Assembly: GCA_023663945.1 (NCBI GenBank)
Contig: JAMPGL010000016.1
Coordinates: 1 to 64,000, forward strand
DNA: 64,000 nucleotides
Source: Lachnospiraceae bacterium
GTDB lineage: Bacteria > Bacillota > Clostridia > Lachnospirales > Lachnospiraceae
Direction: 5' to 3'
Part shown: piece by piece, positions 18,065-21,747 of the stretch
Position numbering within the stretch: the stretch's first letter is position 1
How the letters are laid out: each line of letters starts with the position of its first letter
Position numbers and translations under genes: made by a program
Notes under the pieces: model-generated
The model's input: the letters and a program-made list of their open reading frames with translations, nothing else
Databases searched by the model: none
Told to the model about the DNA's origin: nothing

Positions 18065-18649
18065 TCAATCTGTTTGGGAAAATTTCTCTACATTTACATG
18101 AATAGAAATAGATTGCGGCAGTTCCCTCCTTAATTCCATTTTTCCATTCTCCAACAAGTTTTTGACCTGGCTTCTTGACATTCCCAAAATTTCAGCAATT
18201 TGTTTTTCAGGGCGGATCTTCAGTTGATAAGGATTCCTTATTGTAATCACAACCTGTTCTCCGAAATCACTGTGCTCCGTAGTTTCATGCAGTTTTACAA
18301 AATCATAATTCACCTTTTCTAAATCAATGGTTGCTTTGTTCTTATGAAATAACTGCACACTTTTACCATACATTTCCGCTAATTGCTCATCATTGTCCAA
18401 AAAACACTGGTATTCTTCCTTTGGTATGAAAGAAACTTTTTGCCGTTCATAAATTGAAAGATTAAGGGTATGTTTACATTCTTCACATTGATAAATCAGC
18501 CAGATATCCACTTTATTGCCGTTGGCATTGATACGGAACTTTTTCGTATTTTGAAAATATGTCTTTCTGTCACATTTGGGGCAGACCCGAACAATCCAAA
18601 ATGATTCTTTTAGGGCAATTTCATATTCTATTTTTCTTAAATAGCACAT
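18065..18649 (-). CDS. DUF1062 domain protein
   Basis: About 194 residues. Two CxxC pairs in the N-terminal half (VCPKCDRKTYF and YQCEECKHTL) suggest a zinc ribbon. The C-terminal part contains an HTH-like segment IAEILGMSRSQVKNLLENGKMEL. This is the DUF1062 layout. The ATG at 18649 is preferred because the other one, two codons upstream, touches its AGGAG site. Function unknown; DNA binding is plausible from the HTH-like part. Confidence 0.75.
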   Translation of the reverse strand: MCYLRKIEYEIALKESFWIVRVCPKCDRKTYFQNTKKFRINANGNKVDIWLIYQCEECKHTLNLSIYERQKVSFIPKEEYQCFLDNDEQLAEMYGKSVQLFHKNKATIDLEKVNYDFVKLHETTEHSDFGEQVVITIRNPYQLKIRPEKQIAEILGMSRSQVKNLLENGKMELRRELPQSISIHVNVEKFSQTD

Positions 18650-18712
18650 TTGCATCTCCTGTTCATTTTGCGGTATGATGCGCAGGCTATTACATTATTT
18701 TGTTTATTGTAT

Positions 18713-18734
18713 TTGCAATAGCCACGCTATGCAA
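18713..18734. repeat. dispersed palindrome, copy 1
   Basis: TTGCAATAGCCACGCTATGCAA: TTGCA-TAGC pairs with GCTA-TGCAA with one bulged base. Related copies are at 19268-19290 and 23163-23182, all in the accessory region. Confidence 0.5.
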
Positions 18735-18865
18735 AGCAAACGGGTGTAGTCATAAACATAGTTCTCCTTCCGTTATAATTATTATTTCGATGCTGCTTTC
18801 TTAGGAACTTAATATAACATATCTTAATATGGCATTCCACCTCACACATTTTTATAAAAAAATAT

Positions 18866-18897: not shown

Positions 18898-19167
18898 TTA
18901 CTCGCTCTCTTTTCTCAAAATACGTTGTATGCTTTTCTCAGACAAATAATACTTAGAAGCTAATTCTGAAACTTTGTCCCCGGCAAGATAATCCTTGTAA
19001 ATTTGCCGGTTACGCATCTGAAGTTCCTGCTTAATCTGTGTGCCTGCGCCCCATGCCTGTCTATTTGCTGACTTGCGTGGAATGTAAATATTTTCCCCGT
19101 CAACATACTGCTGTATCAATTCGATTACTTCAATGGGCAGAATTTCTTCTGCTCTTATATAGCCCAT
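18898..19167 (-). CDS. CD3324 family small HTH protein
   Basis: 89 residues starting MGYIRAEEILPIEVIELIQQYVDGENIYIPRK behind AGGAGG. The C-terminal half is a helix-turn-helix (DYLAGDKVSELASKYYLSEKSIQRILRKE). The protein resembles the CD3324 family and the Mor-like activator fold. It is probably a DNA-binding regulator; its target is not evident, though the divergent MFS pump gene is the nearest transcription unit. Confidence 0.75.
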   Translation of the reverse strand: MGYIRAEEILPIEVIELIQQYVDGENIYIPRKSANRQAWGAGTQIKQELQMRNRQIYKDYLAGDKVSELASKYYLSEKSIQRILRKESE

Positions 19168-19267
19168 GTCTGCCTCCTAAACAAATATTTTTTAGGAATA
19201 GCATTGGCTATAACAATCTAAGTAACATAAAGATGAACCATTAAGCGGCAACATCCGTTGTCTTTTA

Positions 19268-19290
19268 TTGCAATAGCCAGTGCTATGCAG
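19268..19290. repeat. dispersed palindrome, copy 2
   Basis: TTGCAATAGCCAGTGCTATGCAG, a variant of the 18713-18734 unit, about 120 bases before the MFS leader peptide. Confidence 0.5.
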
Positions 19291-19450
19291 ACATAACATA
19301 TCGTCTCATATACAAGTCCCCTTTCCTTCTGAAATTTCTTTTACATAATACCAGTAGTCTTATTTAAAATCAACCCAAAAAACACTTGTCTCTATGTGGT
19401 TAATGGTTTACTATAAAATAGAATGCGGCAATATGAAAGGAGACAAAAAG

Positions 19451-19486
19451 ATGCTTTGCATTGCAACAGCTCCATGCAGAGTCTGA
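19451..19486 (+). CDS. leader peptide MLCIATAPCRV of the MFS gene
   Basis: An 11-codon open frame with a strong site (AAAGGAG at 19436-19442, eight bases before ATG), about 90 bases before the MFS pump gene. Its end overlaps the left arms of two competing hairpins. Size, site strength and placement match the leader peptides of inducible antibiotic-resistance genes, where a drug-stalled ribosome changes the RNA fold. Confidence 0.6.
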   Translation: MLCIATAPCRV

Positions 19487-19570
19487 GGAGACTGCATGGA
19501 GGAATCATTTTGGTTGATATCCTCAGACTTTGCTTCTGGTTTGTAAATATGTAAAACAAAAGGAGCAAAG
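19470..19570 (+). promoter_or_regulatory. attenuator: competing hairpins and sequestered ribosome site
   Basis: Four arms are visible. A (19470-19479, CTCCATGCAG) pairs perfectly with C (19492-19501). B (19480-19489, AGTCTGAGGA) pairs perfectly with D (19520-19529). C and D can also pair: GAGGAATCA at about 19499-19507 with TGATATCCTC at 19515-19524. CTTTGCTTCT at 19528-19537 can pair with AGGAGCAAAG at 19561-19570, the ribosome site of the pump gene, with one G-U. A-C and B-D exclude each other because B is the loop of A-C. Confidence 0.6.
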
Positions 19571-19572
19571 AA

Positions 19573-20865
19573 ATGAAATTTATAAAAAAGAATGAACTAT
19601 ATAAGTTAAAGGATTTTTTGATACTTTGGAGTACGCAAAGCATATCCCAGCTTGGCAGCAGCATGACAGGATTTGCATTGACATTGTGGCTGTATGAAAA
19701 AACAGGTTCCTCCCTGAGTACAGCAGCGCTTACGATATGTTCTTATGCGCCATACGTATTAATGAGCATATTTGCCGGCGCATTAACAGACCGGTTTGAC
19801 AAAAAGCGGACAATGCTTGGCTGCGATACCTTTGCTGCAATTTGCACGATTATTGTATTTGTATTGTTTCGGACAAACAGCTTGACGGCGTGGCATTTAT
19901 ATGCTTTGAATGCAGTTTCTGGATTAATGAATACAGTCCAACAGCCTGCCAGTGAGGTTGCTATGACACTTATTATGCCGGAAAAGTATTACCAACAAAC
20001 AAGCGGACTCCGTTCTCTGTCAAGAAGCCTGATTTCTATACTGAATCCTTTGATTGCTACAGCATTATACTCATTTATAGGGCTTAATGGTGTAATAGCG
20101 GTTGACATCAGCAGCTTTTTTGTTGCGTTTTCGGCATTATTGTTTTTGGTCAAAATTCCGAAAAATAAAGGCGGTCAAAAAGAAAGTGTACTCGTTCTTG
20201 CTAAAGAAGGGCTTGTGTTTTTGAGAGAAAATCCGCTTATTATGGCATTGATTTTATTTATGTCCGGCGTTAATCTGACAGCGTCTGCCTTTGATGCCGT
20301 GCTGCCCGGTTATGTGCTCCCCAATCCGAAAGGCGGCTCATCTGTTTTGGGAATTGTCACATCTTGTTCCGGCATTGCTATGATCATCGGCAGTCTGGCA
20401 GTTTCCGTTTTGCCAAAGCCAAAAAACAGGGTAAAGATTATTTATTTAACGATGCTGTTTTCATTGGGAACCGAAAACTTTTTGTTAGCGTTTTCAAGAG
20501 AATCATTATTATGGTGTATCGGGCAGATGATCGGATGGATTCTTGTACCGATTATGAGTGCAAATTTGGATGTGGTTCTCAGAACCGCCATTCCCGTGGA
20601 ATTACAGGGACGTGTCTATGCCTGCCGCAATACGCTTCAATTTTTTACAATTCCCATAGGCTTGTTTATCGGCGGTTTTATGGTGGATAACGTGTGTGAA
20701 CCGTTTATGAGAGCATATGGTAATTTATTCGTTTTAAAAACGCTCTTTGGCTCAGGGAAAGGTTCCGGTGCTGCGCTTATGATGCTGATACTTGGAGTAA
20801 GCGGAAGTTTGATCTGCCTCATCACCGGGAAAAAATTGAAGAAATACCAGTATAACGAAGAATAG
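19573..20865 (+). CDS. MFS efflux transporter, MefA/MFS_3-like
   Basis: 430 residues with about 12 hydrophobic segments. The N-terminal FLILWSTQSISQLGSSMTGFALTLWLYEKTGS, the loop GALTDRFDKKRTM near residue 75 and the block MNTVQQPASEVAMTLIMP are typical of macrolide-type MFS_3 exporters. ATG 19573 has AAAGGAG nine bases upstream. An upstream leader peptide and hairpins suggest induction by a ribosome-targeting drug, which would fit a macrolide-like substrate, but the substrate is an inference. Confidence 0.85.
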   Translation: MKFIKKNELYKLKDFLILWSTQSISQLGSSMTGFALTLWLYEKTGSSLSTAALTICSYAPYVLMSIFAGALTDRFDKKRTMLGCDTFAAICTIIVFVLFRTNSLTAWHLYALNAVSGLMNTVQQPASEVAMTLIMPEKYYQQTSGLRSLSRSLISILNPLIATALYSFIGLNGVIAVDISSFFVAFSALLFLVKIPKNKGGQKESVLVLAKEGLVFLRENPLIMALILFMSGVNLTASAFDAVLPGYVLPNPKGGSSVLGIVTSCSGIAMIIGSLAVSVLPKPKNRVKIIYLTMLFSLGTENFLLAFSRESLLWCIGQMIGWILVPIMSANLDVVLRTAIPVELQGRVYACRNTLQFFTIPIGLFIGGFMVDNVCEPFMRAYGNLFVLKTLFGSGKGSGAALMMLILGVSGSLICLITGKKLKKYQYNEE

Positions 20866-20964: not shown

Positions 20965-21747
20965 TCATTTTTGTGCAACAATGGAAATCCACGCTGGCAG
21001 CGCTGCCATAGGATTATATTTCCAGTTATTTATTTGTGCAAATTTCTCTTTGTCCTGTTTTGTTAATTCCTCATATGAAAACCAAAATGATGCGTTTACA
21101 GCTTGTAGTTCTTCCATTTCCTTTATAGATAACCGCGCCTGTATCATTGCATTTACTAAATCCTGTACACGCCAATGGCAATGTGGCGTAATTTGCTCAT
21201 ATGGCTTAATAATTTGGGGTTCTTTCCAAGGTTCGCCTGTAAATGGGCGGTTGAAGGGATGGATATCAAACATAATCGAAATTCCGTCTGTTTTTAATAC
21301 TCTGTATATGTTTTTATACATTGCCGCTATATCCGCAATCCAAGTGTGTGTACCATTTGATGTATAAACCAAATCGAAGTTGTTATCTTCAATATTTGAA
21401 AGCTGTGTTGTGTCATCACAAATAAAACGAATACTAAGTTTCTTTCTATCTGCAATTTCCCGCGCAAATTCTAATTGCCTCTCGCTGATATCCGTTGAAG
21501 TAACTTCTGCACCCAATAATGCAAAAGCAAAAGCGGCATGATTATCCCCGCTTGAAGGCAACAACACCTTTTTTCCATGCAATTCAGGTATATATTTATT
21601 TATCATTTGATATACTGTGGGATGAAAGGCACTGGCTGGCTCTTTAATCAATTCTTCAATTTTCACATCTGTTCTGAGTGATTGATACCAGTCTGATTCT
21701 GCCGTTTCATTCCAGCTGTCTTTGATTTGCTTTAACCATTCTTCCAC
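20965..21747 (-). CDS. class I SAM-dependent methyltransferase
   Basis: 260 residues, GTG start with GGGGAG eight bases upstream. The Rossmann SAM motif VLLPSSGDNHAAFAFALLG replaces the common E/DxGxGxG, followed by AEVTSTDISERQLEFARE and DNNFDLVYTSNGTHTWI. A Trp-rich N-terminus (WLKQIKDSWNETAESDWYQSL) precedes it. Substrate unknown; small-molecule methylation is likely. Neighbouring genes do not reveal a pathway. Confidence 0.82.
   Translation of the reverse strand: MEEWLKQIKDSWNETAESDWYQSLRTDVKIEELIKEPASAFHPTVYQMINKYIPELHGKKVLLPSSGDNHAAFAFALLGAEVTSTDISERQLEFAREIADRKKLSIRFICDDTTQLSNIEDNNFDLVYTSNGTHTWIADIAAMYKNIYRVLKTDGISIMFDIHPFNRPFTGEPWKEPQIIKPYEQITPHCHWRVQDLVNAMIQARLSIKEMEELQAVNASFWFSYEELTKQDKEKFAQINNWKYNPMAALPAWISIVAQK

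Follow-up and report, generated by a model that had tools for sequence, protein, structure and literature searches.

A probable RNA switch with a leader peptide, common to MFS pump, CatA-like, Cfr and Lsa genes within one bacterial class

How is the efflux-type pump gene at 19573..20865 (+) controlled, and does the short reading frame in front of it respond to a drug? The gene lies in a 64,000-nucleotide stretch of contig JAMPGL010000016.1 from a Lachnospiraceae bacterium (hereafter the window) and encodes a 430-aa MFS transporter (MFS_1/MFS_3, TIGR00900-like). Its closest match among named resistance pumps is MefA, at 110.6 bits against a cut-off of 675; the protein falls below all MefA/B/C/En2 cut-offs and below that of TIGR00900 (179.8 vs 319.6), and no PDB chain was related to it by sequence at E 0.001. 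Directly behind the pump, on the opposite strand, is a SAM methyltransferase gene (20965-21747, -). A first-pass annotation had proposed that the pump is drug-induced through a leader-peptide attenuator. Our analysis indicates that the locus is probably a leader-peptide RNA switch common to MFS pump, CatA-like, Cfr and Lsa genes of one class, in which a stalled ribosome is predicted to free the Shine-Dalgarno (SD) sequence of the gene downstream.

The leader reading frame, identified from the sequence and its homologues, encodes MLCIATAPCRV (ATG CTT TGC ATT GCA ACA GCT CCA TGC AGA GTC TGA, 19451..19486, +) and is preceded by the SD sequence AAAGGAG at 19436..19442 (+); an in-frame ATG further upstream (MKGDKKMLCIATAPCRV) is a possible other start. 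All of the RNA arms lie on the same strand. Arm A, CTCCATGCAG (19470..19479), falls within leader codons and forms a 10-bp helix with arm C, CTGCATGGAG (19492..19501). Arm B, GCAGAGTCTGAGGA (19476..19489), overlaps both A and the leader stop codon and pairs with arm D, TCCTCAGACTTTGC (19520..19533), over 14 pairs including one G-U, four of them beyond the ten described earlier and reaching into arm E. Because A and B share 19476-19479, the full A:C and B:D helices are mutually exclusive. Arm E, CTTTGCTTC (19528..19536), is an anti-Shine-Dalgarno sequence that overlaps D and forms a 9-bp helix with the pump-gene SD arm, GGAGCAAAG (19562..19570). In addition, C' and D can form a small hairpin, AGGAATCA...TGATATCCT (19500..19523), and similar pairing was seen by eye, uncounted, in the homologue alignment. 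The 11-codon leader with its strong ribosome site, the exclusive A:C and B:D pairs, the C-D alternative and a stem masking the pump SD had all been read from this DNA in the first-pass annotation, and each is borne out here, the earlier B:D 10-mer being part of the 14-pair helix and the mask being kept in homologues. The leader stretch folds with z = -3.98, and 0/200 shuffles were as stable. At gathering score, no Rfam 15 family matched the leader, a tRNA being the sole match within the window. Neither the exact peptide nor the leader itself was found in the literature searched, in which subscription papers are poorly covered.

A similarity search with the pump protein returned 41 loci, of which 37 were examined and four excluded for a partial gene (L038, L040, L041 and L042). 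The leader core is present in 35/37, being absent from L003 and L022, and its arms covary, so that the combination of leader, MFS gene and covarying arms that the annotation had suggested seeking in other genomes does occur there. L003 keeps a weak remnant (26.5 bits) consisting of part of E and the SD arm. At L004, an insert of ~70 nt upstream of 2501 splits the leader; it has imperfect terminal inverted repeats (by eye), is flanked by duplicated CCTCAG and looks like a miniature mobile element. Most carriers are labelled as Lachnospiraceae; further ones belong to other Bacillota, and one MAG each bears the label Treponema or Muribaculaceae. Thomasclavelia saccharogumia DSM 17460 (L010) is a cultured carrier. 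Leader copies also occur in plasmid records from Monoglobus (L001, 51.3% pump identity) and Subdoligranulum (L045, 53.5%), and the core pattern gave two further pump loci with a leader in viral contigs (L043 and L044). The pump-protein search found no matches in the viral contigs. There, a loose pattern gave 97 stretches, and among the 80 matches listed, 79 were new and none matched the model up to E = 1; an E:SD pattern gave two stretches, neither matching the model at E 0.01. Pump and leader together were found in one plasmid record and zero phage records of the plasmid and phage collections; the leader alone gave only chance matches in plasmids (E 0.4, one genus) and none in phages.

Sequence 5' of the leader is variable by eye (27 loci). 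Among 39 leaders, the ATG is codon 1 of a 12-codon frame in 32 and lies one codon later in six, including the window; L036 has no clear start. The stop codon sits at the same place in 38/39, L023 lacking one. The consensus is M-x-L-C-I-(A/V)-x-A-P-C-(R/K)-(V/A)-stop. As codons 8-12 lie inside the arms, their conservation may be driven by the RNA. Codon 5 lies outside the arms (19460-19462 in the window) and is Ile in 33/39 leaders, written ATT in 33/33, compared with ATT in 257/527 Ile codons of 15 pump genes; L045, outside the 39, has ATC. Codon 4 is variable, being Tyr, Thr, Ile or Ala in 9/39. The peptide outside the stems is not universal: L043 lacks C-I, and three of four CatA-like leaders read MKRGLD...

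Covariation was counted in a MAFFT alignment of 36 copies, from which the split leader of L004 was excluded; the covariation and permutation statistics ignore the relatedness of the copies. For A:C and E:SD together, 99.0% of cells are paired (99.1% for E:SD alone), with 3 double changes vs 0.2 after shuffling, a level reached by 1/500 shuffles. For B:D, 98.8% of cells are paired, with 12 double-changed cells vs 3.4 shuffled and 0/500 as high. On the pump tree, which covers 35 of the 36 rows, pair 38:89 changes state at least 12 times and pair 39:88 five times, one-sided changes included. We also aligned 75 diverse copies with a model that does not contain B:D, four antisense rows having been dropped beforehand. 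Cognate B and D arms pair at 9.29/10 inner positions vs a permuted mean of 8.85 (sd 0.05), which 0/10,000 permutations reach. In fixed register, inner B:D is weaker in the CatA-like copies (7-8/10), L164 (6), L202 (5) and L271 (4). The annotation's proposal had depended on conservation of the peptide or arms in homologues; the leader, its arms and the SD mask are conserved and covary.

To ask where a ribosome on the leader would open the pump SD, we masked the leader from the 5' end up to an edge of variable position and folded the remainder. Across the 36 copies, the mean probability that the SD is open was 0.27-0.34 with the edge +4 to +6 nt past the G of GCT and 0.02-0.10 at other edges, the best edge being +6 in 34/36. 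Across 66 diverse copies, mean openness was 0.49-0.52 at +4 to +6 and 0.17-0.39 elsewhere, falling to ~0.30 with B covered; 21/66 stayed above 0.5 even at +21. A clear peak appeared in 51 of the 66, at +4 to +6 in 47 of these, and 15 had none. The optimum edge corresponds to Ile in the P site for a ribosome edge of +15 (from the first P-site base) or to Cys for +17; an RNase R-based edge of +17 is given in an excerpt of PMC6238534. The predicted arrest thus falls after 3-5 residues, in a register that depends on the assumed ribosome footprint.

For the window itself, equilibrium folding gives an open probability of 0.14 at the best register. Masking of A makes B:D the predicted fold up to the point at which the SD is transcribed; the two folds then nearly tie, at -29.2 kcal/mol with B:D vs -29.9 kcal/mol for the closed fold. 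With the leader free, A:C is the fold before D exists, but between the synthesis of D and that of the complete SD region B:D is thermodynamically favoured over A:C here too. Since the window SD opens only weakly at equilibrium, the switch must rely on the order of folding, and we predict that it is kinetic, the first-formed of A:C or B:D deciding the outcome. Folding in both states had been put forward as a check in the annotation; the SD mask is conserved, and its release with A masked is a folding prediction, a weak one for the window at equilibrium. Between 19150 and 21000, a search for terminator-like sites with loops of 3-8 found none between leader and pump, the only one lying upstream at 19244-19262, and no T-run follows any arm at the locus. 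As the leader holds no terminator-like site, control is likely translational.

Searches with models of the element showed how far it extends beyond pump genes. Model R1 matched 54/397 genomes of the family, the window's own genome included. Of 54 places besides the window, 48 are followed by the pump according to blastp and two more (L175 and L182) according to tblastn; the others precede an esterase (PF00756, L190), a CatA-like gene (L193), a CD3324-family gene (L197) and no recognised gene (L194). Model R2 matched 28/391 genomes of the class, again with the own genome, and gave 24 new places: 15 before MFS genes, three before CatA-like genes (L266, L267 and L269), two before Cfr (L272 and L275), and one each before an Lsa ABC-F gene (L274), a methyltransferase gene (L271), a CD3324 gene (L270) and no recognised gene (L273). 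In the phylum, 6/398 genomes matched, own included, with MFS genes at L199 and L200 and, by sequence, CD3324 at L202. By eye, arms A and C are retained at L194 and L273. At L201 (1501-1650) the leader stands directly before an apparent pump C-terminal end, as if by internal deletion. L203 (E 4.4e-4) has no arms by eye and no gene, and was taken as a chance match. The element is thus distributed over unrelated genes.

The two Cfr proteins (L272 and L275) score above three cut-offs (642.4/677.8 vs 468, 598.4/621 vs 550 and 582.2/600 vs 530), and Lsa L274 is above its curated cut-off (762.6 vs 750). The CatA-like proteins of L193, L266, L267 and L269 carry the Pfam CAT domain and fall below the CatA cut-off (209.8-214 vs 270). 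At the Cfr and Lsa places the element matches with E 1.2e-4 to 9.5e-4 for one genome, and B:D, which is outside the model, pairs at 10, 10 and 9 of 10 positions. The Cfr, Lsa and CD3324 (L197 and L202) copies keep the arms while their leader runs in a different frame, as with MENKDTMLTHDNLHIKPETSGDIYME in front of Lsa; the frame of L197, L202, L272 and L275 was read by eye, and where the leader of L272 starts is uncertain. The leaders of L272, L275 and L274 share T-H-(N/D)-(R/N)-L-H-x-K, frame-shifted relative to the pump leaders, with the arms alike. In the 500 nt upstream of the mobile cfr, cfr(B), cfr(C) and cfr(D) genes and of a CatA-like plasmid gene (one record each), no match reached E <= 0.1, the best being 0.2.

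Together, these observations suggest the following scheme. In the OFF state, A:C would form first during transcription, D/E would be available for pairing with GGAGCAAAG, and the pump would stay untranslated. In the ON state, a drug-bound ribosome would arrest with the P site on Cys or Ile of M-(x)-L-C-I, masking A and leaving B exposed, and the 14-pair B:D helix would then take CUUUGC from the SD arm, likely freeing the pump's ribosome-binding site. Had the ribosome moved further on, B too would be covered and the SD would stay masked, so that the switch would respond to a single narrow arrest register. The occurrence of this element in front of Cfr, Lsa and CatA-like genes leads us to infer that the inducer is a peptidyl-transferase-centre antibiotic that halts early elongation, of the phenicol, lincosamide, pleuromutilin or streptogramin A class. 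Relatives of Cfr and Lsa confer protection from peptidyl-transferase-centre drugs, and CatA does so from phenicols; the annotation of the Cfr(C) record names phenicol, lincosamide, oxazolidinone, pleuromutilin and streptogramin. A predicted arrest after only 3-5 residues also argues for such drugs rather than for the mef macrolide motif. Lincosamide, streptogramin A and pleuromutilin drugs are described in parts of PMC12421871 as inhibitors of early elongation, which fits that position. The earlier proposal of a drug-induced pump gains partial support from the conservation, the covariation and the places before Cfr and Lsa, and its analogy with erm and mef/msr turns out to be loose, given that no terminator-like site was found in the leader and that the predicted arrest is early.

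Other readings of the same leader have to be set against this one. An erm-like version of the switch, sensing macrolides by nascent-chain arrest further along the leader, would suit a pump whose closest named relative is MefA (110.6 bits) and homologous leaders with I-A-x-A or I-V-V-A, which resemble the arrest motifs of ErmAL1 and ErmCL. Arrest at codons 6-8, however, would cover B, which leaves the SD closed in most of the 36 copies and lowers its openness in the 66 diverse ones (~0.30 vs 0.52); moreover, the element also precedes Cfr, Lsa and CatA-like genes, families not known, to our knowledge, for resistance to 14-membered-type macrolides. We consider macrolide sensing of this kind unlikely. 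We hold it very unlikely that the leader is an attenuator for amino-acid supply (Ile or Cys, for example) or general translation stress, with slowing at codons 3-5, even though the predicted register falls on the Cys/Ile codons and Ile codon 5 is ATT in 33/33 leaders vs 257/527 codons in the pumps. There is a single such codon and no run of regulatory codons, codon 4 varies in 9/39 leaders, three of four CatA-like leaders lack both residues, and several of the genes served belong to drug-resistance families.

The arms alone could damp translation, and a conserved structured leader might set mRNA stability or basal translation with no drug sensing at all; the maintenance of two exclusive helices through compensatory changes, alongside a leader ORF that ends in a stop codon, makes this decidedly unlikely. 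Ribosome-mediated transcriptional attenuation of the mef/msr(D) type is known for the same type of gene, and transcription attenuators of several ABC-F genes are described in parts of PMC12421871. Such control seems hardly tenable at a locus with no terminator-like site from leader to pump (loops 3-8) and no T-run after the arms, where the last hairpin contains the SD and E:SD is 99.1% paired in the 36 copies. Of the readings considered, a translational switch responding to early arrest on the leader is the most likely.

On the minus strand, the window also carries leaders of a second class. One, MRRYVMSA-stop (19283..19309, -; model match 19165-19319), precedes a CD3324-family gene (18898..19167, -; 89 aa, Mor-like HTH); the other, MTTPVCFA-stop (18727..18753, -; or MFMTTPVCFA from 18759; model match 18647-18763), precedes a DUF1062 gene (18065..18655, -; 196 aa). 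The CD3324 leader folds with z = -4.36; the fold of the DUF1062 leader alone is not significant (z -1.16). Relatives of CD3324 occur in 45/150 genomes. Among 30 fetched CD3324 loci, 23 have an eight- or nine-codon leader such as M(R/K)RYVM-x-A with its stop in the hairpin, one (L223) has seven codons and six have none. The CD3324 leaders of L216, L224, L225, L226, L228 and L229 have a second arm type, GCTCAGTAGTCTGAGC, and peptides ending in AQ. DUF1062 relatives occur in 18/120 genomes, a CD3324 gene adjoining in 12 of the 18; six other loci have the leaders MTTPVYFA, MTAPVYFA, MTTPVCFA, MTTPYCFA or MTTPANFA, two a different peptide and nine no leader by eye. Model R3, built from some of the CD3324 and DUF1062 loci, matched 70 places in 44/299 genomes; among 30 fetched places, CD3324 follows 26 and DUF1062 4, and of the three matches in the window's genome two lie within the window.

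For covariation in this class we used 24 rows out of 33 extracted; the nine set aside have long loops or another arm type. The nested structure masking the SD has 39 double-changed cells vs 20.2 shuffled (0/500 as high), but no more than 78.2% of its cells are paired, and a slid control comes to 32 cells; pairs showing double changes, 12 vs 9.5 shuffled (32/500), are not clearly above expectation. The masking test gave no clear arrest register, and we therefore claim no mechanism for class 2 beyond SD masking. As a speculation that we regard as rather less than an even bet, the locus may belong to a drug-sensing hub of gut Clostridia, with one switch on pump, CatA-like, Cfr and Lsa genes and a sister class on CD3324 and DUF1062. 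CD3324 would then be a transcription factor, the Clostridial counterpart of WhiB7 (which WblC resembles), and three leader-controlled genes at one locus would read the same antibiotic.

The pump leader is thus real, widespread and covarying, and is likely a translational attenuator that early-elongation inhibitors would probably induce. It would be a common attenuator family of Lachnospiraceae and their kin, absent from Rfam, in which one RNA module with changeable leader peptides and reading frames stands in front of genes for pumps, drug acetyltransferase-like proteins, rRNA methylases and a ribosome-protection protein. It points to this MFS family, and through leaders of their own to CD3324 and DUF1062, as candidates for a role in the response to ribosome-targeting drugs, and the site at which it predicts the ribosome to stop is sharply defined and open to direct test.

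Among known systems, the cat leader, MVKTD, undergoes early arrest; early arrest is likewise predicted here, where CatA-like and MFS genes share one leader. Arrest on erm leaders comes after 8-10 residues; the leader in the window differs from the ermC type in its peptide, its arms and its predicted arrest after 3-5 residues. The translational attenuators of the chloramphenicol acetyltransferase gene cat and the exporter gene cmlA also combine a short leader ORF with translational control of a resistance gene, and in the ermC type leader arrest changes the pairing and frees the gene's SD, the same logic as predicted here (both as described in excerpts of PMC5418344). Compared by description with cat/cmlA, the present element has a dedicated anti-mask helix, B:D, another peptide, and places before unrelated resistance genes. 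The mef/mel(msr) and msrD systems have an MFS pump and a leader peptide in common with the window; their leaders act transcriptionally, with a terminator, and carry the peptides MTASMRLR or the six-residue MsrDL, according to parts of PMC10314930. The Arg/Lys-x-Arg/Lys arrest motif, as it appears in those parts, is absent from MLCIATAPCRV. The ARE ABC-F attenuators (vgaA, lmrC, vmlR, tiaA and are5sc) share the use of very short uORFs, with lincosamide, streptogramin A and pleuromutilin drugs causing early stalling on those of tiaA and are5sc; unlike the window, and again by description, they use a terminator and anti-terminator (parts of PMC12421871). The same parts place the Streptomyces regulator WblC under ribosome-mediated attenuation, as CD3324 possibly is here, although CD3324 belongs to another, Mor-like family. 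Overall, the system in the window likely works in the manner of the cat, cmlA and ermC attenuators, with the freeing of the SD resting on folding prediction, and what sets it apart from known attenuators is the use of a single RNA module, with interchangeable leader peptides, for several unrelated resistance genes.
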